Virus record (IMG/VR): IMGVR_UViG_3300005581_000096
Span: 1-28,085 of that record
Length of the DNA: 28,085 bases
Origin: a virus
Strand: one strand, 5' to 3'
A program made the translations under genes and the position numbers. Under the pieces are notes generated by a model. That model saw nothing but the letters and a program-made list of their open reading frames with translations. It had not been told where the DNA came from and ran no database searches. This document shows, piece after piece, positions 1 to 19,388 of the stretch; positions within the stretch are counted from its first letter, which is position 1; each line of letters begins with the position of its first letter.

Positions 1-2
1 TA

Positions 3-95
3 CCCATAAAGTTCAATGAGCGGATGCTGAGATACCGTCTCAGCGACATCATAGCCATTGAGTCCGCTGCCGTAGCAACTCATGATCCAAAATAA
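3..95 (+). CDS. C-terminal end of an excisionase/AlpA-like helix-turn-helix protein (cut by window edge)
   Basis: The frame is open from the window edge to TAA at 93-95 and gives about 30 residues with the core PIKFNERMLRYRLSDIIAIE. This matches the recognition-helix end of the HTH_17/MerR-like excisionase and AlpA families, where a 'P.iki..r.lRYrlsDl..w' pattern is usual. The N-terminal half lies outside the window, so the start cannot be given. Such proteins are small DNA-binding factors: excisionases, regulators of integrase genes, or phage transcription factors. No integrase is visible here. A 7-bp hairpin at 26-44 falls inside the coding region. The family call rests on motif shape only. 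Confidence 0.55.
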   Translation, partial: PIKFNERMLRYRLSDIIAIESAAVATHDPK

Positions 96-162
96 AGCCA
101 AGGTCTCCCAGTCCCGGCAACTTCGGTGGCAAAAACAAAATAGATTCTTGGGTTTGTGTGCA

Positions 163-255
163 ATGTGCCGCTGCTATAGCGGACGTAATTACCGTTGCGA
201 GTTGTGCAAAACAAAACACAACAAGCGAAACCTCAACAGAAACAAAAAAATATAA
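163..255 (+). CDS. possible 30-residue Cys-rich micropeptide
   Basis: An ATG at 163 opens a 30-codon frame ending with TAA at 253-255. The product has four cysteines near its start (MCRCYSGRNYRCELC, a C-x-C plus C-x2-C arrangement) followed by a basic Lys/Arg/Asn tail. It could be a tiny zinc-binding peptide. Its stop overlaps an ATA codon at 252-254 that is in frame with the next gene, the same geometry as the ATGA overlaps elsewhere in the window. The first part of the frame spans a 5-bp hairpin (about 169-183). With so short a frame it may also be a chance ORF in an A-rich leader. Confidence 0.25.
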   Translation: MCRCYSGRNYRCELCKTKHNKRNLNRNKKI

Positions 256-488
256 ACACGCCAACCATCATCGAATACATCGGCGGACCCAATGACGGGG
301 AGGGGGAATCTTTTGCCAATTTGCCAAGCTGCAACATTCGCAAACCCAGCTTCGGGCCGGTGCGTTTTAGGCTGGGTTATGAGTGGATCAACACCAACAT
401 CCTGCTCTACTACGCGATCTACCGGATCGACCGTGAGACCAACAAGGCGCATTTTGTGGCCCAAGAAAAATTTGTTCCAGTGCCATGA
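195..488 (+). CDS. small conserved phage protein with GGPxDG motif
   Basis: The conserved-looking part begins at TIIEYIGGPNDGE, about residue 24. The 'GGPxDG' turn near the N-terminus is typical of a widespread family of small phage proteins of unknown function. The rest is beta-rich and has aromatic residues (LGYEWINTNILLYYAIYR). The longest frame starts at TTG 195, and GTG at 204 is another option. The first 20 residues are Gln/Lys-rich and look like a translated A-rich leader, so the true start may be later. No ATG exists between 195 and the motif. An ATA at 252, overlapping the stop of the upstream 30-codon frame, is the nearest candidate. Function unknown. Confidence 0.6.
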   Translation: MRVVQNKTQQAKPQQKQKNINTPTIIEYIGGPNDGEGESFANLPSCNIRKPSFGPVRFRLGYEWINTNILLYYAIYRIDRETNKAHFVAQEKFVPVP

Positions 489-491
489 TTT

Positions 492-764
492 ATGTATCCA
501 TGCTCTCTTTGCGGCGGCTTGCCAAGAACGCACCTTAATCTCTATCAATGCCGAAAAAACCCATGCCACATTGCGGATCTTAACACGAGGATCTGGTTTG
601 CAGTATCAACAGGTAACGAAACAATGCGCGTTTTTGCAAAACCAACGGTTCTTGCCCGCGAAGCCAAAGCAGGTACCGGCCTTGACCGGAATTATCGTTC
701 GACGCGTTTGCCTAACGAGCCTAAAAAAAACACCCATGACCTGTTTTACGAAGGCTATTACTAG
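492..764 (+). CDS. small zinc-ribbon-like phage protein
   Basis: The 90-residue product starts MYPCSLCGGLPRTH and has a second cysteine pair (YQCRKNPCHI), so it should bind one zinc ion through four cysteines. The 'PCxxCGG.P' start resembles the Lar/restriction-alleviation-like and other small zinc-ribbon proteins of phages, but the tail shows no specific match. The start is ATG 492, three bases after the previous stop. The gene overlaps the next one (736-936) by 29 bases. The role is unknown; DNA or RNA contact, or a protein adaptor function, would be the usual guess for such ribbons. Confidence 0.6.
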   Translation: MYPCSLCGGLPRTHLNLYQCRKNPCHIADLNTRIWFAVSTGNETMRVFAKPTVLAREAKAGTGLDRNYRSTRLPNEPKKNTHDLFYEGYY

Positions 765-936
765 GCAGGCGCTTGCCAATCGGCAGCTTCGGAAGCTGGG
801 GCTTTGCCAACGGTGTCGCAAATCATCACCCGAATCCAGTCGCTGCCCGGATTGCCGCGAGCATGAACGGACCAGATCCGCTCGGTTCAAGCAGCGGTCG
901 CGTACTTTGGGCAGACCAAAAAGCACAAATCTTTGA
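736..936 (+). CDS. small CxxC...CxxC zinc-finger-like protein
   Basis: This gene lies in the last third of a much longer open frame that begins near 292. Only the part from ATG 736 looks like protein. The 66-residue product has two CxxC knuckles (LCQRCRK and SRCPDCREHE) and a strongly basic C-terminus (RFKQRSRTLGRP). This is a common phage layout for a small zinc-binding, nucleic-acid-contacting protein. It overlaps the end of 492-764 by 29 bases. The TTG at 933 overlaps its TGA stop and could restart translation for the next gene. Function unknown. Confidence 0.6.
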   Translation: MTCFTKAITRQALANRQLRKLGLCQRCRKSSPESSRCPDCREHERTRSARFKQRSRTLGRPKSTNL

Positions 937-962
937 GGCATTACGGATACATCGCTAGGGAA

Positions 963-1142
963 ATGTTGAGGAACGTGACGGAACAAAACCGAATCATTCT
1001 CCGCAAAACGCAACGAGCCGTGCAAGCAATCGGCCCCAACGCATCAAGCGCAAGCGGCGACTTTGCGGATCAACTTGTAAAACGGCTGATGACCGATGCA
1101 GAGTTTGAGCGGTTAAAAAAATGGAACAACGATGAACCATAA
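963..1142 (+). CDS. hypothetical small helical phage protein
   Basis: The product is 59 residues from ATG 963, or 69 from TTG 933, which overlaps the preceding stop as TTGA. It is predicted to be mostly helical, with basic and glutamine-rich segments (RIILRKTQRAVQAIG) and an acidic/aromatic end (EFERLKKWNNDEP). No domain was recognised. It sits between two small zinc-finger-like genes and a coiled-coil gene on the same strand, with 6 bases to the next start, so it is part of the same rightward operon. Confidence 0.5.
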   Translation: MLRNVTEQNRIILRKTQRAVQAIGPNASSASGDFADQLVKRLMTDAEFERLKKWNNDEP

Positions 1143-1148
1143 AACACA

Positions 1149-1433
1149 ATGAGCGCCACCTGCCCTGACCACAGCGAAAGTGAGTCACCGCGGATGTGCG
1201 CCTGCACCCGCGACACGCTCGACGCCTCCCGCCGCATGGTCGAGACTCGCGACCGAATCATCGCAGACCTAAAGCGCCAAATTGAAGAAATCAAAACTGA
1301 CCGAGAGTTTGTCCGAGGCTGGGCAGTTAGGTGCCAGAACGAAATGGATTATCAGGCCAGCCTAGCTGATATAGCGCGAATGGAAATCCGCGAGCTAAAG
1401 GCGATGCTGCACAGCGTTTCTGATCCGTCGTAG
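1149..1433 (+). CDS. hypothetical coiled-coil protein
   Basis: The 94-residue product has an N-terminal Cys-containing segment (TCPDHSESESPRMCACTRDTL) followed by heptad-like charged helix (about residues 25-90, with stretches such as IIADLKRQIEEIK), so a coiled-coil dimer is likely. The leader just before ATG 1149 is AT- and A-rich (cataaaacaca) and has no Shine-Dalgarno sequence. The next gene starts two bases after its stop. The function is not recognisable. Confidence 0.6.
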   Translation: MSATCPDHSESESPRMCACTRDTLDASRRMVETRDRIIADLKRQIEEIKTDREFVRGWAVRCQNEMDYQASLADIARMEIRELKAMLHSVSDPS

Positions 1434-1435
1434 AA

Positions 1436-1729
1436 ATGAAAACAAAATTGAACACCATATACACAGCCATACTTCAGCACGTTATCGACGAGAAAAACGA
1501 CCTCGACTCAAAATTGAGCTTTTTAAGTGCATTTGCTTTGACCGCCACCTTCGGCACCATACCGCACGAAGAACGAAGCAGGCTCAACCGCCAGCACGCG
1601 GTTATGACCACATACTCCCAAATCCTTGGCGAGCGCATAGACGCTGCAAACCGGCAACCAAAGCAAGACTCCATGCAGGTGCCGCAAAAAAACAAAGCTA
1701 AACAAAGAAAAACAAAGGAAATTAACTAA
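1436..1729 (+). CDS. crAss001_48-related (DUF7681-like) small phage protein
   Basis: The 97-residue product has an all-helical pattern: VIDEKNDLDSKLSFLSAF, then LNRQHAVMTTYSQILGERI. The order 'E..DLd.KL..L..F ... L..Q...M..Y..iL..RI' is the signature of a widespread small phage family often named crAss001_48-related. Its function is unknown. The C-terminal 25 residues are Lys/Gln-rich and disordered. This is the last gene of the rightward cluster before the terminator and repeat region at 1742-1901. The family call is from recall of the motif and has not been tested by a search. Confidence 0.65.
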   Translation: MKTKLNTIYTAILQHVIDEKNDLDSKLSFLSAFALTATFGTIPHEERSRLNRQHAVMTTYSQILGERIDAANRQPKQDSMQVPQKNKAKQRKTKEIN

Positions 1730-1741
1730 CGCCTAGGCAGC

Positions 1742-1765
1742 AAAACTGTTGCCAAATAGCAACAG
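1742..1765 (-). terminator. intrinsic terminator for the leftward cluster
   Basis: CTGTTGC (1746-1752) pairs perfectly with GCAACAG (1759-1765) around a 6-base loop. Read leftward, the stem is followed by TTTT (complement of 1742-1745). It would end transcription of the 4361-to-2040 gene cluster and lies 13 bases past the stop of the converging rightward cluster. Confidence 0.5.
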
Positions 1766-1769
1766 CCCA

Positions 1770-1802
1770 ACGTCCTTGGAACGTCCTTGGAACGTCCAAG
1801 GA
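1770..1802. repeat. three tandem 11-bp repeats
   Basis: ACGTCCTTGGA occurs at 1770-1780 and 1781-1791. A third copy at 1792-1802 has CCAAGG in place of CCTTGG, so copies two and three together form an inverted repeat (CCTTGG-5-CCAAGG, 1785-1801). The array lies in the non-coding gap between converging clusters. It could bind a protein or form a hairpin. Confidence 0.7.
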
Positions 1803-1839
1803 GCGTAGCGTATCCGAGGAGTAGAGGGGAGGGGAGGAT

Positions 1840-2043
1840 TCAAAGCAACGGAGCAAAGCAACGGCAACGGCAACGGTAACGGAGCAAAGCAACGGCAACG
1901 GAAGCCGGTAGCAGGATGTGGGGCGTACTGTTACTGCCCCGCCGGGCCGTGGGCGGGTGCGCCGCCGCGCCCGCGGTGCCGCGCCGCCGCCCGCGCCGCC
2001 CGCGCCCGAGCCGCGCCCGCCTGCCTGCGTCCGACTTCGTCAC
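1840..2043 (-). CDS. doubtful Arg-rich ORF at the end of the leftward cluster
   Basis: The frame opens with GTG at 2043, overlapping the stop of the terminase-small-like gene as GTGA, the junction used repeatedly in this window. It gives 67 residues. The first half is Arg/Gly/Ala-rich (GRRARLGRGRRGRRRG) and extremely GC-rich. The second half reads through the CAACGG array as RYRCRCRC. It may be a basic nucleic-acid-binding tail protein, or simply an open frame in low-complexity DNA. The start geometry is the only positive support. Confidence 0.25.
   Translation of the reverse strand: MTKSDAGRRARLGRGRRGRRRGTAGAAAHPPTARRGSNSTPHILLPASVAVALLRYRCRCRCFAPLL
1846..1901. repeat. short tandem array of CAACGG units
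   Basis: CAACGG or TAACGG units occur at 1846, 1859, 1865, 1871, 1877, 1890 and 1896. Within the array a 21-bp block is present twice (1850-1870 and 1881-1901), 31 bp apart. Iterated blocks like this in a gap can be origin iterons, protein-binding arrays or slippage products. The array also falls inside the doubtful leftward frame 1840-2043. Confidence 0.7.
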
Positions 2044-2696
2044 ACCTCGGGCAAGCTACGTGTATGTGCAAGCGTCGAGCTTGACGTGGGCGACAGTCTC
2101 CGTACGGCGTCGGCTACGGCCTCGGGCGAGGCGAGCACGACCGTGTTGTGCGTCGTCTGCGCTGCGCCTGCGCTGCCGAATCGCTCCTTCATCAGTCCAC
2201 GGATCAACAGTTCGTGCAACTTCTCCGAGTATTCCCGTTTATAGCCTACGAGCATCCCCATCTGATAGACTGGCTGCAGCCTGCCTTCCGTGGCCGCGCT
2301 CCACGCATCCGCGAGCAACAGATCCGCCGCCTCCTTCGCTGCCGCTTCCTCCTCGTTCCTGAACCACTCCCACCGCCGCCATCGTTGCAGCTGCGCCTTC
2401 GTGGTTCCGCTACGGCTCCGGGCCAGCCGCTCCACGGGCACAACCGAGAGCACCGCGAGGTATCGCACCGCATCGGGGGGCAGATACCCCGGCCATTCTG
2501 GGCCTCCCCGCTCGCTTTCGTTGCTGGTCCCCGTCACCGTGCTGTCCTGCTCCGTCACCGTTCCGTTGCTCCCGGGTCTCGGCACGGCTTCCCACGTCAC
2601 CCGCTGCCGCTCTTGCTCGATCTGCTCGTGCAGTCGCTGTTGTGGCTGGGTCGGTGGCGTGTATTCTTCGGCGTCTAGCTGCTCGGTGTTGTTCAT
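2040..2696 (-). CDS. terminase small subunit-like DNA-binding protein
   Basis: The 218-residue product has a Pro/Gln-rich, probably disordered first 70 residues. A helical region follows (PVERLARSRSG, LQRWRRWEWFRNEEEAAAKEAADLLL). It ends with the segment TEGRLQPVYQMGMLVGYKRE plus YSEKLHELLIRGLMKERFG. That last pattern ('eG..ePvy..G.vVGy.r.YSd.LL..LLk...PerF') is common at the C-terminus of phage small-terminase-like helix-turn-helix proteins, which recognise packaging sites. The large terminase is not in the window, so a different DNA-binding role is possible. A promoter-like sequence lies just upstream (2705-2733). Confidence 0.55.
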   Translation of the reverse strand: MNNTEQLDAEEYTPPTQPQQRLHEQIEQERQRVTWEAVPRPGSNGTVTEQDSTVTGTSNESERGGPEWPGYLPPDAVRYLAVLSVVPVERLARSRSGTTKAQLQRWRRWEWFRNEEEAAAKEAADLLLADAWSAATEGRLQPVYQMGMLVGYKREYSEKLHELLIRGLMKERFGSAGAAQTTHNTVVLASPEAVADAVRRLSPTSSSTLAHTRSLPEV

Positions 2697-2704
2697 GGGG
2701 GGCC

Positions 2705-2733
2705 GTGCTACCAGTCCTGCCGCTTCTTGTCAA
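2705..2733 (-). promoter_or_regulatory. promoter-like sequence before the terminase-small-like gene
   Basis: Read leftward, TTGACA (2733-2728) is followed after 17 bases by TAGCAC (2710-2705). The -35 box is perfect for sigma-70; the -10 box is weak. The start codon ends at 2694, so the mRNA leader would be nearly absent. Confidence 0.35.
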
Positions 2734-2785
2734 CCGGGATTTGATTCCACCGACACCGCCGGCCAAGGCTGCTTTGGTCCAGGCG

Positions 2786-2823
2786 TGGCAAAGCCCGGCT
2801 CCGTCTGGATGCGGTAGCCGGGC
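2786..2823 (-). terminator. hairpin with short T run after gene 2846-3280
   Basis: Read leftward, the 8-bp perfect stem (2823-2816 with 2800-2793) and 15-base loop are followed by TTTGCC. It lies 23 bases past the stop of the 2846-3280 gene and upstream of the promoter-like sequence at 2705-2733. It would separate the two leftward units. Confidence 0.4.
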
Positions 2824-2845
2824 CTGCTCTGCTCTGCTGGTTCTG

Positions 2846-3280
2846 TTACTCGTCTCCGCTGTTCAATGCCTCAAGGGCGTCCTCCGCGATCTCCGCACAG
2901 TATCTTGCTCGTGGGTGGTTGCTCATGCGGCCCGCCTCGTTGATTGCTTCCAGTGCGGCGAGCAACTGGGGCGCGGCTGCGATCAGGCGGGCGTTTCCGT
3001 GTCTCTCCTCGTCGGGTATCACGCGGCTAGTGTCGCAGTCCGCGACGTGGTTCCCTTCGCTGGTCATCACCCGCGTGTCCTTCGCTCTCCACGGCCCCGG
3101 TGTGTGCGGCCCCCATGCCTGCGCGGTTGCAGCCGCTGCCCGTTGCGCTGCTCGCCTTTTGCCGCAGGTGCAGTCACTCCCCCACCGGAATGCCCATTCC
3201 CTTCCGTTCCCGAGCGTGATCAAGGTCGAGTCGTCGGTTGTCGCGGTCGCGGTCTCGCCGCAGTTGTCGCACGTCTTCAC
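2846..3280 (-). CDS. phage protein with zinc ribbon and HTPGPW/NARLIAAAP signature
   Basis: Starting at GTG 3280, which overlaps the stop of the upstream gene as GTGA, the product is 144 residues. It begins VKTCDNCGETATATT and has a second pair (DCTCGKRR), so four cysteines can form a zinc ribbon. The middle and end carry HTPGPWRA and NARLIAAAPQLLAALEAI. These two motifs mark a very common small phage protein family of unknown function. The longer frame reaching 3592 is a shadow of the neighbouring genes and reads as Arg/His-rich noise. The combination of ribbon and family domain in one chain may be a fusion. Confidence 0.7.
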   Translation of the reverse strand: MKTCDNCGETATATTDDSTLITLGNGREWAFRWGSDCTCGKRRAAQRAAAATAQAWGPHTPGPWRAKDTRVMTSEGNHVADCDTSRVIPDEERHGNARLIAAAPQLLAALEAINEAGRMSNHPRARYCAEIAEDALEALNSGDE

Positions 3281-3537
3281 GGCCTGCCCTCCCTTTCGCT
3301 CGGTGTCATCTCGCTCTCCTGCCATGTCTCGGTCACGCTCGCGGTGTATTCGGTCAGTGCCCCGGTGCGGAAGTCCTGCGATGTCCGTTGTCGGGTTGTC
3401 TGGACTCTCCACTTCCCGTCGCCGCACATGGGCGACAGTTTGCGGTCGAGCATCCCCGTCCGCCCGTCCGTGTGCGTGACAAGGTCGCCTTTCCGCAGGA
3501 TCCACGCGGCGGCGGTGGTGGTGGCGGTGGTGGTCAT
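3277..3537 (-). CDS. small phage protein with KOW/SH3-like start
   Basis: The 86-residue product starts at ATG 3537, which overlaps the previous stop as ATGA. It has a Thr-rich opening (MTTTATTT) and then ILRKGDLVTHTDGRTGMLD, a 'kGD.V.h.dGr.G.v' pattern seen in KOW- or SH3-like beta barrels of small phage proteins. The remainder (GKWRVQTTRQRTSQDF) is beta-rich and polar. Function unknown. Its stop overlaps the GTG of the following gene, so translation of 3534-4085, 3277-3537 and 2846-3280 is probably coupled. Confidence 0.6.
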   Translation of the reverse strand: MTTTATTTAAAWILRKGDLVTHTDGRTGMLDRKLSPMCGDGKWRVQTTRQRTSQDFRTGALTEYTASVTETWQESEMTPSEREGRP

Positions 3538-4085
3538 CGTGCTGCCTCCTCGCATCCATTCCACACGCACACCCGCGGCGACTCCCACTCATAGTCGCCG
3601 TCCCAGTCCCGCACCTCTACCACTGCACCCTTCGGCGCGGTCACGTCCTGCACGGCCCCGCCGCGCACCTCCACCACCACCCGCCACGGCTGCCCGATCC
3701 GCGTGTTCCAGTTTGGTGTCCACTCTGCTAATGCGGCGTGTGCTTCTTTGCACAGCTTGCCCAATCTGGGGCGGGCCGTGGTGGCGTACATTTCCGCCGC
3801 TCGCACCAACTCGGCCAGAGCGTCCCGCTGCCGTTCGTGCTGGTCTGCCGTCGCGGTTTCCCGCGCCAGTTCCGCCGCCACTACGGCGCGGGCCTGCTTC
3901 ATCGTGCTGTCGAGTTCCCGCACGGCCTGTTCACCGTGTTCCCGCGTGGTTACGTTCTTGCAGACCTGCACGCTATTGATGAGCATCGCGAGAGCCGCGA
4001 CCGGGGTCAGATTGGCCTCCGGTGCTGGCTCCTCCGGTGTTGGCTCGCTCTGCCGGGGGGTGTTGGTGGTGGTGGTCGTGTTCAT
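3534..4085 (-). CDS. hypothetical phage protein, helical N-half and beta C-half
   Basis: The 183-residue product begins with a Thr/Pro/Glu-rich linker (MNTTTTTNTPRQSEPTPEEP). Residues about 28-115 form long helices (VRELDSTMKQARAVVAAELA, ADQHERQRDALAELVRAAEMY), probably a coiled coil. The C-terminal part WRVVVEVRGGAVQDV then VVEVRDWDGD matches the 'v.veV.gGvvqdV ... v.V.D.D' strand pattern of small phage proteins of unknown role. It lies 12 bases after the first gene of the leftward cluster. Its first codons are almost pure ACC/ACA repeats. Confidence 0.6.
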   Translation of the reverse strand: MNTTTTTNTPRQSEPTPEEPAPEANLTPVAALAMLINSVQVCKNVTTREHGEQAVRELDSTMKQARAVVAAELARETATADQHERQRDALAELVRAAEMYATTARPRLGKLCKEAHAALAEWTPNWNTRIGQPWRVVVEVRGGAVQDVTAPKGAVVEVRDWDGDYEWESPRVCVWNGCEEAAR

Positions 4086-4097
4086 GGTCGTAGTGGT

Positions 4098-4361
4098 TTA
4101 TTGCTCCCCCGCCGCGATGCTCGTCCGGTCGCCGTCCGCGTGCCGCTGGCGGAAGTCGCCGCGATACACCGCCCGGGCCTGCTCAAAACTGAGCATCTCT
4201 CCGGTTTCGCAATCCATCCAAAGATCGCCGCCGCCGCAGTGCATGACTCGGTCGGAGTTTTCCATCTCCTCCCGCACGCTCCACGTGTTGTGATAGTATC
4301 GGGGGGGGGTGGTGGTGCCCTGCGTCGCGGGCCGCGTCGTTGTTGTGGTGGTGCTGTGCAT
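4098..4361 (-). CDS. hypothetical protein, first gene of the leftward cluster
   Basis: The start is ATG 4361 (MHSTTTTTTRPATQGTTT), preceded by GGAGAG at a good Shine-Dalgarno distance, one of the few such cases in the window. The product is 87 residues, with a Thr-rich leader of about 20 residues, then NTWSVREEMENSDRV, a Cys/Gly turn (MHCGGGDLWMDCETG) and a helical end (MLSFEQARAVYRGDF). No family was recognised. The longer frame to 4421 is not needed, since the divergent control region begins there. Confidence 0.55.
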   Translation of the reverse strand: MHSTTTTTTRPATQGTTTPPRYYHNTWSVREEMENSDRVMHCGGGDLWMDCETGEMLSFEQARAVYRGDFRQRHADGDRTSIAAGEQ

Positions 4362-4375
4362 GGCTCTCCATATGG

Positions 4376-4395
4376 ACCGGAGCCGCTTAGGTTGC
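4376..4395. promoter_or_regulatory. operator candidate, copy 1, over the leftward promoter
   Basis: This 20-bp site (core GCTTAGGTT at 4385-4393) is 17/20 identical to 4462-4481 and in the same orientation, 86 bp apart. Read leftward it covers the spacer of a weak promoter: TTGCAA (4394-4389), then 17 bases, then CATATG. A regulator bound here would act on the leftward cluster. Confidence 0.45.
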
Positions 4396-4461
4396 AAGCC
4401 CTTTTCTTTGCTCGGCCTCACTTTTATTTTTGACCTCCCGTAACTTTCCCCTTGCGCTCCA

Positions 4462-4481
4462 ACCGGAACGGCTTAGGTTCC
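4462..4481. promoter_or_regulatory. operator candidate, copy 2, before the rightward cluster
   Basis: The second copy of the 20-bp site lies 4 bases before the ATG at 4486. Between the two copies is an AT-richer stretch (4400-4437) with TTGACC in rightward orientation, a possible -35 box. Paired sites on both sides of a divergent promoter are what a repressor or activator switch would use. No palindrome is evident in the unit itself. Confidence 0.45.
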
Positions 4482-4485
4482 CCCC

Positions 4486-4611
4486 ATGCACACCATCCGC
4501 CACCTCCTCCGCCTCCTCGCCGTTCGGCTCGGGCGCAACGTCCGCCGCCACTCACGCTTGCCGTATCTCGGGGAGTCAATGGCGTGGTTCAACGCCCCAA
4601 CCCGCCGCTAA
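4486..4611 (+). CDS. 41-residue basic hypothetical protein
   Basis: ATG 4486 opens a 41-codon frame, MHTIRHLLRLLAVRLGRNVR then RHSRLPYLGESMAWFN, ending with TAA at 4609-4611. The next gene's ATG follows at 4613. The product has a basic amphipathic helix and a short conserved-looking end. It fills the gap between the divergent control region and the zinc-ribbon gene and is too well placed to ignore, though no homologue is recognised. Peptides of this size are often missed by gene callers. Confidence 0.4.
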   Translation: MHTIRHLLRLLAVRLGRNVRRHSRLPYLGESMAWFNAPTRR

Positions 4612-4612
4612 T

Positions 4613-4828
4613 ATGTCCGACCTCGACGCTCTCTTTACGATCACCTGCGCCGACTGCCGCGAGTCCTCGCCCGCGCTCGATTGGTGTGAGACGGCAGGCG
4701 GGCACAGGCTCCCGGTTGACCAGTTCCAGTGCCCCCGCTGCGCCACAGGTTTCCGCCGCGTCCCTTCCCGCCTGAACTACGGCCCCGCCTACGTGTTGGA
4801 GCCAGTCGCCCAGCCCGCCCTCCTTTGA
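4613..4828 (+). CDS. small zinc-ribbon protein
   Basis: The start is ATG 4613; the longer frame from 4430 runs through the control region and is not protein-like. The 71-residue product has ITCADC, then C-terminal WCETAGG and FQCPRCATGFRRV. The two CxxC pairs suit one zinc ion, as in small phage regulators. It lies directly before the ArdA gene (4 bases between stop and ATG), so the two are probably expressed together early after infection. Function unknown. Confidence 0.55.
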   Translation: MSDLDALFTITCADCRESSPALDWCETAGGHRLPVDQFQCPRCATGFRRVPSRLNYGPAYVLEPVAQPALL

Positions 4829-4832
4829 TTTT

Positions 4833-5408
4833 ATGACAGCACCAACAACCACCACCAACGCAGCGGGCGCGACGAGTCCCGCAGACAGCACAGCAGCAGC
4901 AGACCACCGCATTTATGTCAGCACATATGCGAAATATAATAGCGGTTCAATCAAGGGCGCATGGCTGGACCTTAGCCAATACGCCGACCGAAACGCCTTC
5001 CTTGAGGCGTGCGCGGAACTGCACAAGGACGAAACCGACCCCGAGCTTATGTATCAGGCGTTCGAGGGATTCCCCCGCGCATGGTATGAGGAGTCCAGCG
5101 CCCCGCCCGACGTTTTTTGGGAGTGGCTCGACATGAGCGACGACGACAAGGACGCTTTCGGTATCTACGCCGACGACATGGGCGGCGATGTCACGGTTGA
5201 CGACTTTCGCGAAGCGTACCAAGGCACGGCAGACAGCGAGGCGGATTTCGCGGAGCAATTCGCGATTGAAACCGGATCAATTCCCAAAGATCTCCCAAGC
5301 TGGATCGTGATCGACTGGAAAAGCTCATGGTCGACCGGATTGCGCTTTGATTACTGGTGCGACCGGAGCCGGAGCGGCGGGGATCTTCACTTCTTCCGCA
5401 ACATCTGA
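4833..5408 (+). CDS. ardA: antirestriction protein ArdA
   Basis: ArdA proteins are elongated, acidic DNA mimics that bind type I restriction-modification enzymes and stop them cutting incoming DNA. This 191-residue product fits the family in order and length: IYVSTYAKYNSGSIKGAWLD at residues 27-46, YQAFEGFPRAWYEES at 74-88, DDFREAYQGTADSEADFAEQ at 123-142, and the C-terminal LRFDYWCDRSRSGGDLHFFR. It has many Asp/Glu, as expected. An extra Thr/Ala-rich tail of about 25 residues precedes the domain (MTAPTTTTNAAGATSP). It leads the rightward block, consistent with early expression against host restriction. Confidence 0.92.
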   Translation: MTAPTTTTNAAGATSPADSTAAADHRIYVSTYAKYNSGSIKGAWLDLSQYADRNAFLEACAELHKDETDPELMYQAFEGFPRAWYEESSAPPDVFWEWLDMSDDDKDAFGIYADDMGGDVTVDDFREAYQGTADSEADFAEQFAIETGSIPKDLPSWIVIDWKSSWSTGLRFDYWCDRSRSGGDLHFFRNI

Positions 5409-5424
5409 CCGACCCGCGCCACAC

Positions 5425-5448
5425 CGCGCCCCCGCTGTCGGGGGCGCG
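5425..5448 (+). promoter_or_regulatory. 10-bp GC hairpin between ardA and the next gene
   Basis: CGCGCCCCCG (5425-5434) pairs perfectly with CGGGGGCGCG (5439-5448) around a 4-base loop. No T run follows, so a complete terminator is unlikely. Attenuation or 3'-end protection of the ardA message would fit. An A/C-rich leader (5461-5492) separates it from the next ATG. Confidence 0.5.
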
Positions 5449-5492
5449 TTAGGCGCGAGCCATTCAGGCCCGAGCAAAACCAAAAAAACAAA

Positions 5493-5768
5493 ATGATCCA
5501 GCAACCTCAACAGACAGACCACCACCACCACGAAGCCGCCGCGCCTGCCGCCGCGACAGTCGCAGACACTGCGGAAACCATCCGCACGTTTTGCCTGCTC
5601 GCGCTCAAGGGTGCGCTCTACCTTGAAACCAAAGGTCTCCGGCGGCGGGGGCAGTCCGCCCTTGCCGCTGCCCGCGCCCAGTTCCCGCAGGCCGTGACGG
5701 CCCGCACCGCTGCCGCCGCCTTGCCGCAATTAGTCGCCCAGCTTCGCGAAATGGGGGTGGTGAGATGA
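5493..5768 (+). CDS. hypothetical small helical protein
   Basis: The 91-residue product has a Gln/His-rich start (MIQQPQQTDHHHHEAAAPAA) and then helices (IRTFCLLALKGALYLETKGL; AALPQLVAQLREMGVVR). The leader before ATG 5493 is A-rich (aaaccaaaaaaacaaa) without a Shine-Dalgarno sequence, and the first codons are CAA/CAC-rich. Its stop overlaps the next start as ATGA, so the DUF7007-like gene is likely translated by coupling. No function is apparent. Confidence 0.6.
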   Translation: MIQQPQQTDHHHHEAAAPAAATVADTAETIRTFCLLALKGALYLETKGLRRRGQSALAAARAQFPQAVTARTAAAALPQLVAQLREMGVVR

Positions 5769-6349
5769 GCCGCGAAATCGAAAGTCCCACCGCGTTGCGA
5801 GATAGTCCTTGGGGGCGCATCATAGCGACGAAGCCGCACGGCGCGGGCATGATCTGGGTCACCACGGCAAGCCACGGCGGGCTATGGCTCGACCCTGCCC
5901 GCCGCGCAGAGATGGCCGCCGCGTTTCCGTCGTTCACGCCTTGGGGCGGGCGCGGATTTGAATGGCTGGAGGAGGATTGCGATGTAAGCGTTGCCGCGAT
6001 CCTGTGGCCTGCCGATTTCACGCCGTCGATGGTCTCGGCATCCGTGGCGATGGTCTCGCAGCCGGGGCGCGGTTACTTCGACGCCGTGCGCCCGTGGCTG
6101 GAGTCGCCCGCGGGTGCCGACGCTCGCCGAATCGCGGCCGAGTTCAACGCATCCGTGGCCGATCTGTGGGAGGTGGGCAGCCTGAGCGGCGGAAAACACG
6201 ACGCGCCGGGGTGGCGCGTTATGTTCACGCACCGCACGACCGGAGAGCAAAAGTGGCTTGCGCTGCCCGACTATCCCGAGAAATCGCTGTATTCGGGCGC
6301 GGAGCTTGAGCAGTTCGCGGAGCCAGCAGCAGCAGCAAAAGCGGCCTGA
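5765..6349 (+). CDS. DUF7007-like phage protein
   Basis: The 194-residue product has PWGRIIATKPHGAGMIWVTT and then ASHGGLWLDPARRAEM, followed by FEWLEEDCDVSVAAILWP. The sequence 'G.i......g..wv.T.sHGG..l...r...m' and then 'yEeD..w.v' is the hallmark of the DUF7007 domain found in phages and plasmids, whose function is unknown. The C-terminal third (GWRVMFTHRTTGEQKWLALP) is beta-rich, and the end is Ala-rich. The start is ATG 5765, overlapping the upstream stop by 4 bases. The next start lies about 95 bases on, past a hairpin. Confidence 0.7.
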   Translation: MSREIESPTALRDSPWGRIIATKPHGAGMIWVTTASHGGLWLDPARRAEMAAAFPSFTPWGGRGFEWLEEDCDVSVAAILWPADFTPSMVSASVAMVSQPGRGYFDAVRPWLESPAGADARRIAAEFNASVADLWEVGSLSGGKHDAPGWRVMFTHRTTGEQKWLALPDYPEKSLYSGAELEQFAEPAAAAKAA

Positions 6350-6360
6350 CCCGCCCCGAG

Positions 6361-6389
6361 TCCGTTCCGGTGCCCGTGGCCGGAGCGGA
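6361..6389 (+). promoter_or_regulatory. stem-loop before the 6444 gene
   Basis: TCCGTTCCGG (6361-6370) pairs with CCGGAGCGGA (6380-6389), one T-G wobble included, around a 9-base loop. It lies 12 bases past the DUF7007-like stop and upstream of an AACCAAC-rich leader (6416-6443). It has no T run. A role as attenuator or mRNA-stabilising stem is possible. Confidence 0.35.
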
Positions 6390-6443
6390 AGCGGTGCGGG
6401 CAGTCCGCCCACATCGAACCAACACCAACAGAAAACCCAAACA

Positions 6444-6749
6444 ATGACATTTCCCACAATACACATGAACGGCACCAACCCCGACGACCTGCTTGAGGGT
6501 TACCGCAATGCCCTCGACGCATTGACCGACGCGCAGGACGCGCTCGCGGAGTGCTTCCCGAACGGTCGCGACTATTACCCGCAGGGAGCGGAAGCCATTA
6601 GTTTGGCACAGGCCGAGCACTGGAAACGCCGGGGGATGCTGACCGCGATTCACGACGAAATTCAGGAGCTTGCCATGTTCTGCATGAGTGCCATCGACGA
6701 ACGCAATGAACGCGCTCGCGAACGTGATGCACGGAGGACGCAGGCATGA
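6444..6749 (+). CDS. conserved phage protein (HMNGT...PNGRDYY family)
   Basis: The 101-residue product contains IHMNGTNPDDLLEGYRNALD and FPNGRDYYPQGAEAIS, then a helical end (HWKRRGMLTAIHDEIQELA). This motif pair defines a common family of small phage proteins of unknown function, so this reading frame is certain. The start ATG 6444 follows a C/A-rich leader (caacagaaaacccaaaca) with no Shine-Dalgarno sequence. The open frame extends back to 6258, but that part is not protein-like. The stop overlaps the start of a membrane micropeptide (ATGA). Confidence 0.75.
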   Translation: MTFPTIHMNGTNPDDLLEGYRNALDALTDAQDALAECFPNGRDYYPQGAEAISLAQAEHWKRRGMLTAIHDEIQELAMFCMSAIDERNERARERDARRTQA

Positions 6750-6811
6750 TGTGGCTCGAGCTTTTTGTCCTGTTGTCGCTCCTTTTTTCGGTCATTTTTT
6801 TCAAGCGATGA
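6746..6811 (+). CDS. 21-residue single-span membrane micropeptide
   Basis: ATG 6746 overlaps the preceding stop, and TGA 6809-6811 overlaps the next ATG (6808), so the small frame is joined at both ends by ATGA. The product is MMWLELFVLLSLLFSVIFFK plus a final Arg: one hydrophobic segment of about 16 residues with a positive C-terminus. The perfect fit into the operon suggests it is translated. Phage micropeptides of this shape can act on membrane proteins or as minimal holins, but no such function can be assigned here. Confidence 0.55.
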   Translation: MMWLELFVLLSLLFSVIFFKR

Positions 6812-6993
6812 GACACCCAGCCTCTCCTCCGATACATGCCCGCTGCTACCTAGCATCCGTGAACATGGTGCCGCACGGCCCCAGCGTTCCCGGCGCGATC
6901 TGGATCGTGTTTTGCGTTACATGGTACAGCCACCACGGCCCGCACGGAGCCGAAGGATACCCAGAAGGGGCCGCGTTGTTCAGCCTCAACTAG
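6808..6993 (+). CDS. hypothetical small protein
   Basis: Starting at ATG 6808, coupled by a 4-base overlap to the micropeptide, the product has 61 residues. It is rich in His, Pro and aromatic residues (IWIVFCVTWYSHHGPHGAEG) and has one or two short hydrophobic stretches. It could be membrane-associated or a small beta protein. Nothing in the family literature is recalled for it. It precedes the 7002 gene by 8 bases. Confidence 0.5.
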   Translation: MRHPASPPIHARCYLASVNMVPHGPSVPGAIWIVFCVTWYSHHGPHGAEGYPEGAALFSLN

Positions 6994-7001
6994 CGCACCA
7001 C

Positions 7002-7334
7002 ATGAAAGCAAAACGCAATTTCCGGCGCTACGTGTGGAAGATGAACGAGGGCAGGCGGCGGGCGGTGGCCCGCGTGCTGGCGCAAGTCACCGAGCAGACG
7101 CGAGCGGTGCGGATGCGGAGCAGGCGCGACCCGGAAAAGTTCGTGATCGTGACCCGTTGCACGTATCCCGGGAAGCAGTGGCGCGGATCGTTCTTCGACC
7201 AGCACGGCCCGTGGAGTCACTTCAACGCCGAGACCATCGCGGACGCGCTGCGGAGCTTGTGCGGGGAGCGGGTGCCGGGCATCGGTCCGTCGTGGGGGCA
7301 CGCGGGGCAATACGTCGTGGAAAGAGTCATTTGA
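7002..7334 (+). CDS. hypothetical basic phage protein
   Basis: The 110-residue product has a highly basic first half (MKAKRNFRRYVWKMNEGRRR, VRMRSRRDPEKF) and a second half with the look of a small mixed alpha/beta domain (VIVTRCTYPGKQWRGSFFDQ, then HFNAETIADALRSLCG). The start is ATG 7002; the open frame continues upstream to 6765 only as a shadow. No domain was recognised. Its position before the orphan and helicase genes suggests an early role. Confidence 0.55.
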   Translation: MKAKRNFRRYVWKMNEGRRRAVARVLAQVTEQTRAVRMRSRRDPEKFVIVTRCTYPGKQWRGSFFDQHGPWSHFNAETIADALRSLCGERVPGIGPSWGHAGQYVVERVI

Positions 7335-7383
7335 CAACCAACCAAACCCGCTTTAGTTTCAACGCAGCAACCAACAACATCCA

Positions 7384-8271
7384 ATGAAAATCAACCGCAC
7401 TTACCAAGTAAAATACGTCAAGACCATCCTCGGTTTACGCCTTTCCAAGTCGCGCACCGGAAACGGGGCGTGGATGGATGGAGACTCCGCCCTGCCGCGC
7501 CCGGTCGCAGAGTCTTTTGATAGAACCGTGAAGCGCAAGACCGACCCGGAACTCGCCGCTATTTACAGCCAGATTTTCTCCGGGAAGGAGACGCGCATCA
7601 GCAGCACAGGTGACAAGGCGTACAGCTTCACCGTAACCGGCAAGCCTGACATGACCATGACGCTGCGCGGCACGATGGAGATGGCGGCGCTGCCGCTCGA
7701 TGCGGTTCCTGTGGACATCATGGCGGCGGCGGAGGCGCAGAGCAGCGGGCGGTGGCAGTGGGACAAGGCGCATCTGACGATCACCGGAAAAGATGCCGAC
7801 CTCGAACCGTGGGGAACGCAGGCCGCGGAGTTGGTTGGGGTGCGTGGAAAAACGCTGCATTGCATCGCTCATATCGGAAAGACGTTTGCCGGTACGGATG
7901 TGACCCTGAACCTCACGAAGCGGCAGGACAAAAGCGAAAAGCAGTCGGAGAAGGCGCGGAATCTGTATCTCGAAATGGCGCAGGAGGTTGTCTGCGGATG
8001 CGGTGTTGCTGGGATGTGGGATGGGGACTCTTGGTATATGTCCGAGTCCGTTCCGTTTACCGTTCGCATCCGATCCACGCCGGAGGCGACCGCTGAAGCG
8101 GTTCGGCGCAAGATCGACCCGGTTCTTGAGTCCTTGGAGCGCGAACTCGTGGTGTGCGACCGGATTATCGAACAACTTTCTGGATGGAAAGACGAACATG
8201 GCAACCATTGCCCAGAGGGCAAACCTCCGAAGTGCAGCGTGCCCGCAATGATCCAGAAAGGAGCGAAGTAA
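7384..8271 (+). CDS. 295-residue protein of unknown function
   Basis: The leader is rich in AACCAAC/CAAC motifs and has no Shine-Dalgarno sequence. Residues 1-170 look beta-rich (for instance YSFTVTGKPDMTMTLRGTME). Residues 175-290 include a Lys/Glu-rich helix (KRQDKSEKQSEKARNLYLEM), a Cys-rich bend (VVCGCGVAGMWDGDSW) and helical segments (ESLERELVVCDRIIEQLSGW). The end has two more cysteines (HCPEGKPPKCS). No homologous family was recognised. It is separated by one base from the next Cys-rich gene, followed by the SNF2 helicase, and so may belong to the same process. Confidence 0.65.
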   Translation: MKINRTYQVKYVKTILGLRLSKSRTGNGAWMDGDSALPRPVAESFDRTVKRKTDPELAAIYSQIFSGKETRISSTGDKAYSFTVTGKPDMTMTLRGTMEMAALPLDAVPVDIMAAAEAQSSGRWQWDKAHLTITGKDADLEPWGTQAAELVGVRGKTLHCIAHIGKTFAGTDVTLNLTKRQDKSEKQSEKARNLYLEMAQEVVCGCGVAGMWDGDSWYMSESVPFTVRIRSTPEATAEAVRRKIDPVLESLERELVVCDRIIEQLSGWKDEHGNHCPEGKPPKCSVPAMIQKGAK

Positions 8272-8615: not shown

Positions 8616-10613
8616 ATGACCCAGACCCTCGACATCTCCACCCTTTGCGCGTGGACCGAACCCAAGAAAGTAAACACGAAGCAGGGGCCGCGGATTCTCC
8701 GCACCGCTCCGCCCAATGAAGCGTTCTCAAAGCTCTGGAAGCAAGGAAAGGAGGCGCTGAAGGCGGCGGGACTCGGCTGGAACAAGTCGCTGCTCGGTGA
8801 GTGGCAGATTTGTTGGTGGAGCGTGGACGGCGAGGCCCAGACCGAGGCGCGGGCGACCATTGCGGAGAGTCGGGCCGCGGAGCCACTGCGCGACGTAGTG
8901 ATCCCGGTGCCCGACGGGCTGGCATATCTGGATTATCAGCGGGCGGGCATTGCGTGGGCGATGGCGAGACCTGCGGCACTGATCGCGGACGAGATGGGAC
9001 TGGGAAAGACCATACAGGGGATCGGCGTGATCAACGCAGACGAGGAGATTCAGCGCGTACTGGTGATCTGTCCGGCATCGCTGAAGCTGAATTGGCAGCG
9101 GGAAATGGAGAAATGGCTGACGAGGAAGCTGCGGATCGGCATTGCCGCTGGCAAGTTCTGGCCGGGATCGGTCGTGGACATCGTGATCGTGAATTATGAC
9201 ATCTGCGCCAAACACGCGGAGAGCATCCACGGCGAGGTTTGGGATTTGGTCATTATGGACGAGGCCCACTATTGCAAGAACCCGAAAGCCCAGCGGACAC
9301 GGGCGCTGCTCGGAGGTGGCAAGGAGAAGCGCCCCTCGGTGCAGGCCCGACGCAAAATCGTGCTCACTGGCACGCCGATCCTGAACAGGCCCATCGAGGC
9401 CCAGCCTATCCTCGGCTTTCTGGACAAGGACACGTTCGGGAATTTCTTCCACTTTGCGAACCGCTACTGTGGCGCAAAACGCGGAAGATTTGGGTGGGAC
9501 TTCAGCGGCGCGACGAATCTGGACGAGTTGCAGCAGCGGCTGCGCTCGACGGTAATGATCCGCAGGCTGAAGGCCGACGTGCTGACCGAACTCCCAGCAA
9601 AGCGGAGACAGGTGATCGAAATCTCCGGGGATGCTCATGTTGGGCTGCTTTCCAAGGAACGCGGAATTGAGGAGCGGCATCGGGACATGATGCAATCGCT
9701 CCGCGACGCGCTGGAACTCGCTCGGGTGCTGGAGAACAAGGCGGCGTATGCGGATGCCGTGGAGAAGCTGCGGATGGGTCAGCAGGCCATGTTCACCGAG
9801 ATGGCGGAGATCCGGCATCAGGTAGCCTTGGAGAAGGTGCCCTACGTGGTGGAGCACGTCTCGGATGCGGTGGAGAGCGGTCCGGTCGTGCTGTTCGCGC
9901 ATCATCGGGACGTGGTGGCCGCGCTGGTCGCCGGGCTGCGTGAGCAGGGGCGGCGGGTGGTGTCGCTGGTCGGCGGCATATCCGACGAGGACAAGCAGGC
10001 GGCGGTGGACGACTTCCAGAGCGGGGCCGCGGACGTGTTCGTGGGGAACCTGAAGGCCGCGGGCGTCGGAATCACGCTGGTGCGCTCCTCGCATGTCGTG
10101 TTTTGCGAACTGGATTGGGTGCCCGCGAACATGAGTCAGGCCGAGGATCGGTGCCACCGCATAGGACAGCGGGACTCGGTGCTGGTGCAGCACATCGTTC
10201 TGGAGGGGTCGCTCGACCAGATCATGGCGAAGGCTTTGGTCAGGAAGCAGGACGTGGCCGACAAGGCGCTGGATGATCCGACCACCGCAGCAGAGGCGCA
10301 AGAACCTGTGGAGACCGTGACGATCATTGCAAAGGACGCGGAGGATGATCGCCCAGAGCGCAGGTCAGTAAGCACGGAGAAGCCTAGTCGGGACTATTCA
10401 GCCGACGAGATCCGCCGACTACTCGCGGGTCTTCAGACGCTTGCGGCGATGTGCGACGGCGCTCACTCGGTCGATGGGAGCGGCTTTAACAAGTGCGACA
10501 GCCAATTTGGCAAGGGGCTGTCGAGGCAATCCACGCTTTCGCATCGTCAGGCCGCAGTTGCGGAGCGGTTGTGCCGGAAGTATCGGAGGCAGATCGGGGA
10601 CGTTCTTGCTTGA
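8616..10613 (+). CDS. SNF2-family (SF2) helicase, phage type
   Basis: The 665-residue product is a double-RecA ATPase that moves on duplex DNA. Motif I is ADEMGLGKT (residues 124-132), motif II DEAH (215-218), motif III LTGTP (250-254), and motif VI QAEDRCHRIGQ (508-518). The motifs resemble SMARCAL1-like annealing helicases more than chromatin remodellers. After the helicase core, a C-terminal region (about 580-660) with LLAGLQTLAAMCDGAHSVDG and the final RKYRRQIG resembles a tail seen in phage SNF2 proteins. Such enzymes are implicated in replication-fork handling. ATG 8616 follows an AACCAACCCAAC leader. Confidence 0.9.
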   Translation: MTQTLDISTLCAWTEPKKVNTKQGPRILRTAPPNEAFSKLWKQGKEALKAAGLGWNKSLLGEWQICWWSVDGEAQTEARATIAESRAAEPLRDVVIPVPDGLAYLDYQRAGIAWAMARPAALIADEMGLGKTIQGIGVINADEEIQRVLVICPASLKLNWQREMEKWLTRKLRIGIAAGKFWPGSVVDIVIVNYDICAKHAESIHGEVWDLVIMDEAHYCKNPKAQRTRALLGGGKEKRPSVQARRKIVLTGTPILNRPIEAQPILGFLDKDTFGNFFHFANRYCGAKRGRFGWDFSGATNLDELQQRLRSTVMIRRLKADVLTELPAKRRQVIEISGDAHVGLLSKERGIEERHRDMMQSLRDALELARVLENKAAYADAVEKLRMGQQAMFTEMAEIRHQVALEKVPYVVEHVSDAVESGPVVLFAHHRDVVAALVAGLREQGRRVVSLVGGISDEDKQAAVDDFQSGAADVFVGNLKAAGVGITLVRSSHVVFCELDWVPANMSQAEDRCHRIGQRDSVLVQHIVLEGSLDQIMAKALVRKQDVADKALDDPTTAAEAQEPVETVTIIAKDAEDDRPERRSVSTEKPSRDYSADEIRRLLAGLQTLAAMCDGAHSVDGSGFNKCDSQFGKGLSRQSTLSHRQAAVAERLCRKYRRQIGDVLA

Positions 10614-10644
10614 CTATCAGGACGAAAACGCCTTTACTCCACAC

Positions 10645-11064
10645 ATGACACCACCAGATCCCGAGCCAATCTTCACCGCAGAACATCGCGCAGTCATGGC
10701 AATGCTGGGGAAGCGCGGAGGCCGCTCCCGTAGCAAGGCAAAACTCGACGCCATCCGAAAAAACGGATCCATGCCAGTGCGGCCCGGTAGCCTTCCTCGC
10801 GGCGGACTTGGAGTGAAACTGGCTCGGGAACGCAGGCTGGCGATGGAGGCGGCGGGCCTCATTGAGACGCAGCCGCCGAATCGCGACAACCCTGTGGTTC
10901 AGTGCGTGCGTCGGTGCGGGTTCCGTATGGCGATCAGCAATGAGATGTCCGAGGTGTTTCACAAAGGGCAGGGCATCAAGTGGACGTGCCCGCGGTGCAA
11001 GGCACCGAACCTCGCCAAACCGTACCGGCGACTGCCGAAGATCAAGTTTCAACCTCCGGTGTAA
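10645..11064 (+). CDS. hypothetical protein with basic N-part and C-terminal zinc ribbon
   Basis: The 139-residue product begins at ATG 10645, 31 bases after the helicase stop. Residues 22-60 are basic (GKRGGRSRSKAKLDAIRKNG, then RPGSLPRGGLGV), and the C-terminal part carries a CVRRCGFRM...WTCPRCKAPN pair that can bind zinc. This suggests a DNA- or RNA-binding role, possibly with the upstream helicase. A strong intrinsic terminator follows 23 bases after the stop. No precise family was recognised. Confidence 0.6.
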   Translation: MTPPDPEPIFTAEHRAVMAMLGKRGGRSRSKAKLDAIRKNGSMPVRPGSLPRGGLGVKLARERRLAMEAAGLIETQPPNRDNPVVQCVRRCGFRMAISNEMSEVFHKGQGIKWTCPRCKAPNLAKPYRRLPKIKFQPPV

Positions 11065-11068
11065 GATT

Positions 11069-11341
11069 TCAGGGCTGTTGCTGCTCGCCGCCATCGGGAT
11101 TCGTTCCGATGGCGGTTTCTTTTTGCACCCTTGCAATGTGTTTGCAAGCAAGGGCCGCGATGCTTTTTACAGCGCGAGAAGGTTCAATGCGGCACTCAAA
11201 GTGGCGGCAGTTGCAACGCCCAAACGGGAAATCGGAGTCCGTGAGATCCACCAGATAGTCGAGGTCGTCGCTGCTCTCGCTCGGGCACCAGTAGAGGCCG
11301 ATGCCGTATTGGCGGATCGGTCGGTTGTAACGCGGAGTCAC
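11069..11341 (-). CDS. small SWIM-like Cys/His protein
   Basis: The 90-residue product starts at GTG 11341, overlapping the HNH gene's stop as GTGA. It reads RQYGIGLYWCPSESSDDLDY then LVDLTDSDFPFGRCNCRHFE, followed by ALACKHIARVQ. The 'v.l....CsC.hf.......CKHi' spacing is that of SWIM zinc fingers (CxC-xn-CxH), which bind DNA or proteins in recombination complexes. It is the last gene of the recombination operon. The longer frame upstream to 11419 is a shadow of the HNH gene. Confidence 0.6.
   Translation of the reverse strand: MTPRYNRPIRQYGIGLYWCPSESSDDLDYLVDLTDSDFPFGRCNCRHFECRIEPSRAVKSIAALACKHIARVQKETAIGTNPDGGEQQQP
11088..11125 (+). terminator. strong intrinsic terminator of the rightward block
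   Basis: CCGCCATCGG (11088-11097) pairs perfectly with CCGATGGCGG (11106-11115) around an 8-base loop and is followed by TTTCTTTTT. It would end the long 4486-11064 unit. The hairpin lies inside the 3' end of the converging leftward gene (11069-11341). Confidence 0.85.
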
Positions 11342-11760
11342 AAGGCGAGGCCCAGCTTGCGAGCGTTCTTCATGTCCTCGTGGATCTCGGTGTGGCATTT
11401 CCGGCACACTGCGGCCCACGTCTCAATACGGTTCAGATTCGGCCCTCGGCCTTGCATGTGGTGGACATCAGTGCTTTTGGCGCGATTTACCCGCCGCGGA
11501 TGCAGCATCCTGCACGCTTCGCAATCGGGATGAGATGTCAGGAAATTCGCACGCAGAGTGGAATACTCCTTGTTCTCTTTGGTGCGCTTTTCGGACATTG
11601 GCGCGATGCGTGTTCTGGGTTTTGGAGAACGCGGAGTCCACTTGGTCGGCCCAAACGCAATGAATCTTCCTCCATGCTTTCTGCCCTTTGGGCATTTCCA
11701 TGTTACAAGCGCATGGTCGATCCGCGCCTTACGGCAATGCTGGCACTTGACTGAGATCAT
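11338..11760 (-). CDS. HNH endonuclease
   Basis: The 140-residue product starts at ATG 11760, which overlaps the upstream stop as ATGA. It has an N-terminal zinc knuckle (VKCQHCRKARIDHALVTWKC) and a C-terminal HNH domain: CEACRML, then DVHHMQGRGPNLNRIETWAA and VCRKCHTEIHED. The HH pair is the catalytic start of the beta-beta-alpha-metal motif, and the two CxxC pairs hold the structural zinc. HNH proteins in this position may nick at junctions, act in packaging or be selfish. The genes around it are recombination genes, so a role with the RusA-like protein is possible. Confidence 0.8.
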   Translation of the reverse strand: MISVKCQHCRKARIDHALVTWKCPKGRKHGGRFIAFGPTKWTPRSPKPRTRIAPMSEKRTKENKEYSTLRANFLTSHPDCEACRMLHPRRVNRAKSTDVHHMQGRGPNLNRIETWAAVCRKCHTEIHEDMKNARKLGLAL

Positions 11761-12110
11761 CGAAAATCGAGCCAGAAAGCAAGCCTGTTGGCAATACGAC
11801 GCGGCAACAGGAACATAATCATGGACTGGCGAGCGAGCGCAAGGTTGTCGTGGCAATGGAGCGAGAGTCGGTAGAGTTGTGCGCTAGTGCGGAGCCGGTG
11901 CCACCAGCCTCGGGATCCATTAGCCACAAGGAACGCCCGCAGTTGCTCCTGCCTTTCCTTCTGGATGTTCGCCTTGGCGATGCGGGCCAACAGAAAGCCC
12001 TTGTGCGATTTGATGCAGGCCACTTCTCCGTGTCCCGGTATTCTAAACAACTCAATTCGATACGAAGGAGCACTCGATTCGCAACCGCACTCACATTCAA
12101 AGGTTCTCAT
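11757..12110 (-). CDS. hypothetical protein with Cys-rich N-terminus
   Basis: The 117-residue product starts MRTFECECGCESSAPSYRIE, with a CxCxC cluster, and then has basic helical segments (ARIAKANIQKERQEQLRAFL) and a hydrophobic end (SMIMFLLPRRIANRLAFWLD). The start ATG 12110 overlaps the end of the RusA-like frame as ATGA. It may be a small metal-binding partner of the nuclease genes on either side. No family was recognised. Confidence 0.55.
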   Translation of the reverse strand: MRTFECECGCESSAPSYRIELFRIPGHGEVACIKSHKGFLLARIAKANIQKERQEQLRAFLVANGSRGWWHRLRTSAQLYRLSLHCHDNLALARQSMIMFLLPRRIANRLAFWLDFR

Positions 12111-12414: not shown

Positions 12415-12485
12415 TAGGGGGAGATTGTAGAGCAGGTTTGCGGTGCATGGCGAGCAGAATATGCTGCGGAAGCGGAATGTTTGGG

Positions 12486-17308: not shown

Positions 17309-17334
17309 TGGGGTTTTAAGCAGATAGCTCCATT

Positions 17335-17994: not shown

Positions 17995-18006
17995 AATATG
18001 ATGGCT

Positions 18007-18018
18007 GGTTGGTTGGTT
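18007..18018 (-). repeat. AACC repeat in the SSB-like gene's leader
   Basis: GGTT occurs three times in tandem on the plus strand; the mRNA reads (AACC)3 starting 24 bases before ATG 17994. The same element, with six copies, precedes the capsid gene (25637-25660). No Shine-Dalgarno sequence is present, so this may be the translation-enhancing part of the leader. Confidence 0.6.
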
Positions 18019-18034
18019 GATTTATTGCTCCGCC

Positions 18035-19384: not shown

Positions 19385-19388
19385 TATT

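Follow-up and report, generated by a model that had tools for sequence, protein, structure and literature searches.

The convergent gene gap near the left end of a viral DNA stretch (IMG/VR viral record IMGVR_UViG_3300005581_000096, classed linear; its entire 28,085 bases are referred to as the window) contains two repeat arrays, which are real, specific to this gap and adjoin a packaging gene, namely that of the terminase small subunit (terS). As the best single reading, favoured tentatively and with rather less than even confidence, the gap is suggested to be a candidate cis-acting packaging-initiation region, i.e., a pac-like region recognised by TerS, whose repeats are lineage-specific. 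An earlier sequence-only reading of this DNA had offered packaging, attachment and origin functions for the gap, a proposal which is partly supported, as the packaging function gains real support from the identification of the gene adjoining the arrays as terS.

The gap comprises 310 bases between position 1729, where the rightward open reading frames (ORFs) stop, and position 2040, where the leftward gene ends, and GC content changes across it from 48% to 66%. Its left border is formed by the last ORF of the rightward cluster (1436..1729, plus strand), which encodes a small protein of 97 aa related to crAss001_48 (Pfam PF21825, E=4.6e-13) with matches in 13 phage records at 36-49% identity; the six small rightward ORFs assigned left of the gap represent a choice among overlapping frames. 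Its right border is formed by terS (2040..2696, minus strand), which reads leftward toward the arrays and was identified by its match to phrog_4044 (E=3.3e-12), while Pfam and NCBIfam returned no match for its product. Just right of the terS cluster an ArdA-type antirestriction protein is encoded (4833-5408, plus strand; PF07275, E=5.7e-18), and further right (17335-17994, minus strand) a 219-aa protein without PHROG or Pfam match was noticed, whose terminal DDDIPY is reminiscent of the acidic tail found in single-strand-binding proteins. Window positions 9700-28085 are 100% identical to a second contig (IMGVR_UViG_3300027608_002410), which extends 3,722 bases further right; joining both yielded an extended sequence of 31.8 kb, and the array region lies outside the reach of this contig. 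A missed gene located over the arrays was rejected because both open frames found there (1840-2043, minus strand, and 1809-2084, plus strand) are of low complexity and the terS stop coincides with the end of its homologue.

The left array (1769..1806, plus strand), as delineated by repeat comparison, is composed of the 11-bp direct repeat AACGTCCTTGG, of which two full copies (1769-1779 and 1780-1790) are followed by a third one starting at 1791 that matches 7 bases and is 81% identical over 16 nt, meaning that of the three 11-bp repeats described before two are complete and the third is only partial. The right array (1841..1901, plus strand) consists of seven YAACGG units at positions 1846, 1859, 1865, 1871, 1877 (TAACGG), 1890 and 1896, with CAAAGCAACGG starting at 1841, 1854 and 1885, and includes an exact 24-bp block present at 1847-1870 and again at 1878-1901. 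Here, the number of units and the spacing of 31 bp agree with the former description, but the repeated block measures 24 bp instead of 21 bp.

Shuffle tests and the comparison with other gaps confirmed that both arrays are real. When the window was shuffled 200 times with dinucleotides preserved, no shuffle contained a direct repeat of 18 nt within 100 bp, the direct-repeat score of the gap amounts to 24 as compared to a shuffle maximum of 12 (0/100 shuffles), and the 11-bp array by itself scores 18 versus a maximum of 7 (0/100). No such excess was found in the three next largest gaps of the window, one of which is the other convergent gap (11065-11337). Of 11 short-range direct-repeat clusters in the 31.8 kb sequence, the arrays take second place, after a cluster at 19411-19497 which resides inside a collagen-like ORF. 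Searches for the units elsewhere in the phage had been proposed along with the arrays; with up to one mismatch allowed, the 11-mer and the 13-mer GCAACGGCAACGG each occur within the window in this gap alone.

Left of the arrays, folding identified a hairpin (CTGTTGC/GCAACAG; 1746..1765, minus strand) which resembles an intrinsic terminator. On the minus strand the 41 nt around it possess a dG of -17.7 (z -3.68), a stability reached by 0 of 200 shuffles, and the stem is followed by the U-run UUUUGCUG, hence the stable hairpin and subsequent U-run by which an intrinsic terminator is defined are both present. The terminator formerly claimed for the gap is supported to this extent, but a simple terminator scan did not report it, probably because G-U pairs lengthen the stem into the U-run. 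As the U-run is found on the minus strand, the hairpin would stop leftward transcription, i.e., the terS transcript, and the arrays, being located between the terS stop codon and the hairpin, are therefore placed in the predicted terS 3' UTR. The likeness to a Rho-independent terminator of a convergent gap consists in the hairpin and its minus-strand U-run at 1746-1765, and it accounts for the hairpin only, leaving the arrays unexplained. The partial third copy of AACGTCCTTGG forms an inverted repeat with 8-bp arms, and the 51 nt around it are matched in stability by 3/200 shuffles for the plus and 1/200 for the minus strand; the claim that the 11-bp repeats form an inverted repeat is therefore correct as to the arms, but gap-wide the structure is no better than chance (41/100 shuffles as good), and its interpretation as an operator was rejected on these grounds.

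Both flanks of the hairpin-array region are compositionally unusual. An AT-rich stretch (1686..1745, 70% AT) overlaps the end of the left gene and carries A-tracts with a period of 10 at 1688-1721; just 0.03% of the 60-mers in the 31.8 kb extended sequence are AT-richer, and the stretch represents mostly the Lys/Asn-rich end of a gene. When curvature was calculated with a simple wedge model, 0.24% of the 63-step windows were more curved than the A-tract flank, and ten separate places rank higher, which makes the flank one of many curved places. On the other side, between the arrays and the terS stop, a stretch with 86% GC (1920-2039) was noticed, not far from one with 31% GC (1685-1745).

For comparison, 13 viral contigs carrying the window's major head protein were found, including the identical contig mentioned above. 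A terS match was obtained in 5 of 17 related records, two of them weak, and in one of seven further records, this being a contig identical to part of G013. In one related lineage, represented by G010 (61,070 bases, the ends of which overlap by 772 bases at 94%), G011 and G023, the TerS of G010 (55540-56244, minus strand; PHROG 4044, E=6e-17) is 48-50% identical to that of the window and has a convergent left neighbour, and its gap of 396 nt exceeds all other intervals (59 in total) of a map drawn from the longest ORFs. The readable part of this gap is unchanged in G011 and shows one difference in 341 bases in G023. The convergent terS gap itself is thus kept within the lineage; the arrays, however, were not found in the terS gaps of these three records, an outcome of the proposed comparison with relatives that speaks against the sequence-only reading. 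Repeats in the G010 terS gap are marginal (2/100 shuffles as good) and are equalled in one of five other G010 gaps (49602-49961, 1/100 shuffles). Among 22 related records the sole exact copy of AACGTCCTTGG resides in that latter interval (G010 49858, L045:9858-9868) and not in the terS gap; so many bases having been covered, it is unsurprising and probably due to chance. This lone copy is located near a GATGTAGAAC repeat. In a set of nine related records no exact AACGTCCTTGG was present, and with one mismatch allowed scattered single matches were obtained in 9 of 13 other records.

G013 belongs to a different, more distantly related lineage (TerS match with E=4.7e-16) and possesses a different direct repeat of 26 bp, 88% identical and with a spacing of 53, which touches the terS stop; within the 399 bases tested behind terS the repeat excess was reached by 0/100 shuffles. 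The G013 gap amounts to about 1 kb, and as its plausible left gene has the same direction as terS, convergence is not kept. A 19-bp palindrome, TGTCGCCCAWTGGGCGACA, was noticed twice behind the G013 terS, with a distance of 381 bp (L055:14686-14704 and L055:15067-15085). As for the two weak terS matches, the distant relative G021 revealed no repeat excess behind terS (29/100 shuffles), and in G016 there is no gap at this position, the next ORF overlapping the terS end. The contigs G011 and G023 start, in G010 coordinates, at 55199 and 55685 and overlap by 487 bp with 18 differences. The idea that contig ends in the gap reflect physical genome ends was rejected, as 17 of these 18 differences locate to the terS part near the G023 end, rendering strain variation or contig-end noise the simpler reason.

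A GC-rich block which may be common to the terS gaps of the window and G010 was suggested by local alignment, whereby the best alignment of both gaps comprises window positions 1934..1965 (plus strand), including TGGGCGGGTGCGCC at 1950-1963, and G010 positions 55250-55287. Its score of 35 was reached by none of 300 shuffles and none of 1194 other G010 windows, yet its significance is modest: when the GC-rich part alone was shuffled 7/1000 reached the score, when both sides were shuffled 1/1000 did, a further site in the window's phage, represented by three overlapping windows of 804, gives a better match to the G010 gap, and under ungapped scoring an equally high value is obtained for 14 of 150 G010 windows. 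The 14-mer TGGGCGGRTGCGCC, picked after the alignment of both gaps had been seen, is found a single time, free of mismatches, in each of four sequences (the extended one of 31.8 kb, G010, G011 and G023), every time in the terS gap; because the latter three are one lineage, these are two independent observations and not four. TGGGCGGRTGCGCC is absent from G013, G014, G015 and G003 as well as from the terS ends of G021 and G016; no terS match was obtained in G014 and G015.

Observed in connection with the favoured packaging reading are the repeats, the neighbouring terS, the gap, the terminator-like hairpin and, in the few relatives read, a gap behind terS with differing repeats. The reading is favoured by the identity of the neighbouring gene, the restriction of the arrays to this gap of the window, the size of the terS gap in G010, the repeats behind the G013 terS and the GC-rich block with its 14-mer. 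It is weakened by the missing arrays and marginal repeats of the G010 lineage, by the lone exact 11-mer residing in another G010 gap, by the findings in G021 and G016, by the gap of G013 not being convergent, and by the modest significance of the GC-rich block. Of what characterises a pac or TerS-recognition site, the location at terS (the gap begins at its stop codon) and direct repeats beyond chance were found. A precedent is known from phage SPP1, whose pac site comprises three direct-repeat sets located at the gene of the small terminase; its boxA repeats are missing in the related SF6, where another pair is found instead (PMC4737164). The likeness to these pac sites concerns both the occurrence of direct repeats in DNA at this gene and their variation between related phages (PMC4737164). 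As a difference, the SPP1 pac spans promoters and the start of terS, whereas here the repeats of the candidate site locate to the gap behind terS; as the arrays end at 1901 and terS starts at 2696, the gap is not classed as an SPP1-type pac, and the position of the arrays on the 3' side of terS, with about 800 bp separating them from the start of the gene, counts against a packaging site. The same source reports that the DNA-binding domain of SF6 TerS has little preference for the pac repeats and that a bent-DNA model was favoured (PMC4737164), hence repeats near terS are no proof of TerS binding.

The suggested packaging mechanism assumes that the small terminase encoded by the right-hand neighbour of the gap would recognise non-coding DNA behind its own gene. 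Recognition would proceed via the direct repeats, i.e., the 11-bp units, which follow each other at a distance of one helical turn, and the CAAAGCAACGG units, with the curved AT-rich flank possibly assisting. TerS would then bring in the large terminase, which is expected to cleave the concatemer close to this site. Binding by TerS, cleavage and whatever role the repeats may have are predicted steps. A more specific version, considered doubtful, assumes a packaging site inside the terS 3' UTR in which fast-evolving arrays would be replaced between lineages, with position and GC-rich core staying and each TerS recognising its own array. Few phages have known packaging sites, and metagenomes hardly allow such sites to be read. 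Should repeat-bearing gaps behind terS mark packaging sites, the packaging start would become predictable for uncultured phages; if the repeats are not related to packaging, the gap would be an ordinary terS 3' spacer.

The latter possibility ranks next after packaging and is quite conceivable, if likewise held below even confidence. It assumes that the repeats of this 3' spacer, transcribed with terS, are not under selection and that their short units have grown by replication slippage in a convergent gap with a terminator. In line with this, the terS stop on one side and the terminator-like hairpin on the other enclose the arrays, the exact expansion of a hexamer and one exact 24-bp duplication look recent, the inverted repeat does not exceed chance gap-wide, and the terS gap of G010 is without arrays, with at most scattered single 11-mer matches held by related records. 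However, slippage without selection does not readily account for the absence of such repeats from the three other window gaps, for two separate arrays within one gap, for the terS gap being the largest interval of the G010 ORF map, or for G013 having its own repeats behind terS. An iteron-type replication origin, in which an initiator would bind the repeats and the adjoining AT-rich stretch would melt, comes third and is unlikely. SPP1 oriL and oriR have direct repeats beside an AT-rich stretch (PMC6316719), and the window resembles them in this arrangement, its direct repeats adjoining a 60-mer that ranks among the AT-richest in the 31.8 kb sequence; due to this flank the origin keeps some weight. 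Different from these SPP1 origins, as described there, no initiator gene was found beside the arrays (a partial scan of ORFs revealed none in the families covered) and no global skew extreme coincides with them. In the proposed GC-skew check the global minima of the three sequences examined lie away from the gap: the raw cumulative ones locate to 5745 (extended window) and 60288 (G010), the detrended ones to 7031 (extended window), 5889 (G010) and 17568 (G013). In G010 the detrended skew does change its slope at the terS gap, but phage skew also follows gene strand and the strand switch at this position would have the same effect; moreover, the AT-rich stretch is mostly a coding end.

Least probable by far is a phage attachment or recombination site or a module-boundary hot spot. 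The jump in GC content across the gap and the finding that 0/6 ORFs left of it have a G010 match would fit a boundary, but the ORFs that follow terS on its right side as far as 8587 are without G010 homologues as well, and the gap is therefore no special boundary. For the attachment site formerly suggested, neither the tyrosine-integrase nor the serine-recombinase family was matched in any of six records, which may be fragments.

A known RNA was rejected as an explanation: Rfam gave no match at gathering score in the window, with three weak matches (E 2-4) in 1600-2100, and no tRNA was found. Similar DNA was found neither for window positions 1-8000 among the phages of the phage collection nor for positions 1-4500 among the plasmids of the plasmid collection, and viral_contigs does not contain the 18-mer taken from the 11-bp array. 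In this latter collection the window TerS protein alone had no match, and a search with the TerS alignment retrieved G010 and G011 only; G010 TerS had no match in the phage collection, nor had the head protein, an SbcC-like protein and the G010 portal, and neither the TerS nor the TerL alignment revealed a relative in genome_contigs. The TerS fold was predicted with a mean pLDDT of 46 (4 sequences), and the TerS profile gave chance hits only against solved structures.

Next to these searches, two observations were made in the relatives. G011 (29332-29782) and G023 (31004-31454), which originate from one metagenome, have a 451-bp segment in common (93%), beyond which they diverge, hence the genome of this relative may exceed the 60 kb suggested by G010. 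Furthermore, the large terminases of G010 (46849-49140, minus strand) and G013 (L055:9235-11484, minus strand), which are 48% identical to each other, possess an N-terminal dual-specificity-phosphatase-like domain with the motif HCNxGxSRAP and, judged from their sequences, represent a predicted phosphatase-terminase fusion (phrog_2, E=1.4e-10; DSPc, E=6.7e-4, below its cut-off; DUSP10, E=0.0025), on which a literature search found no paper. Eight viral contigs (L077-L084) match this large terminase exclusively within residues 6-172, i.e., its phosphatase-like part.
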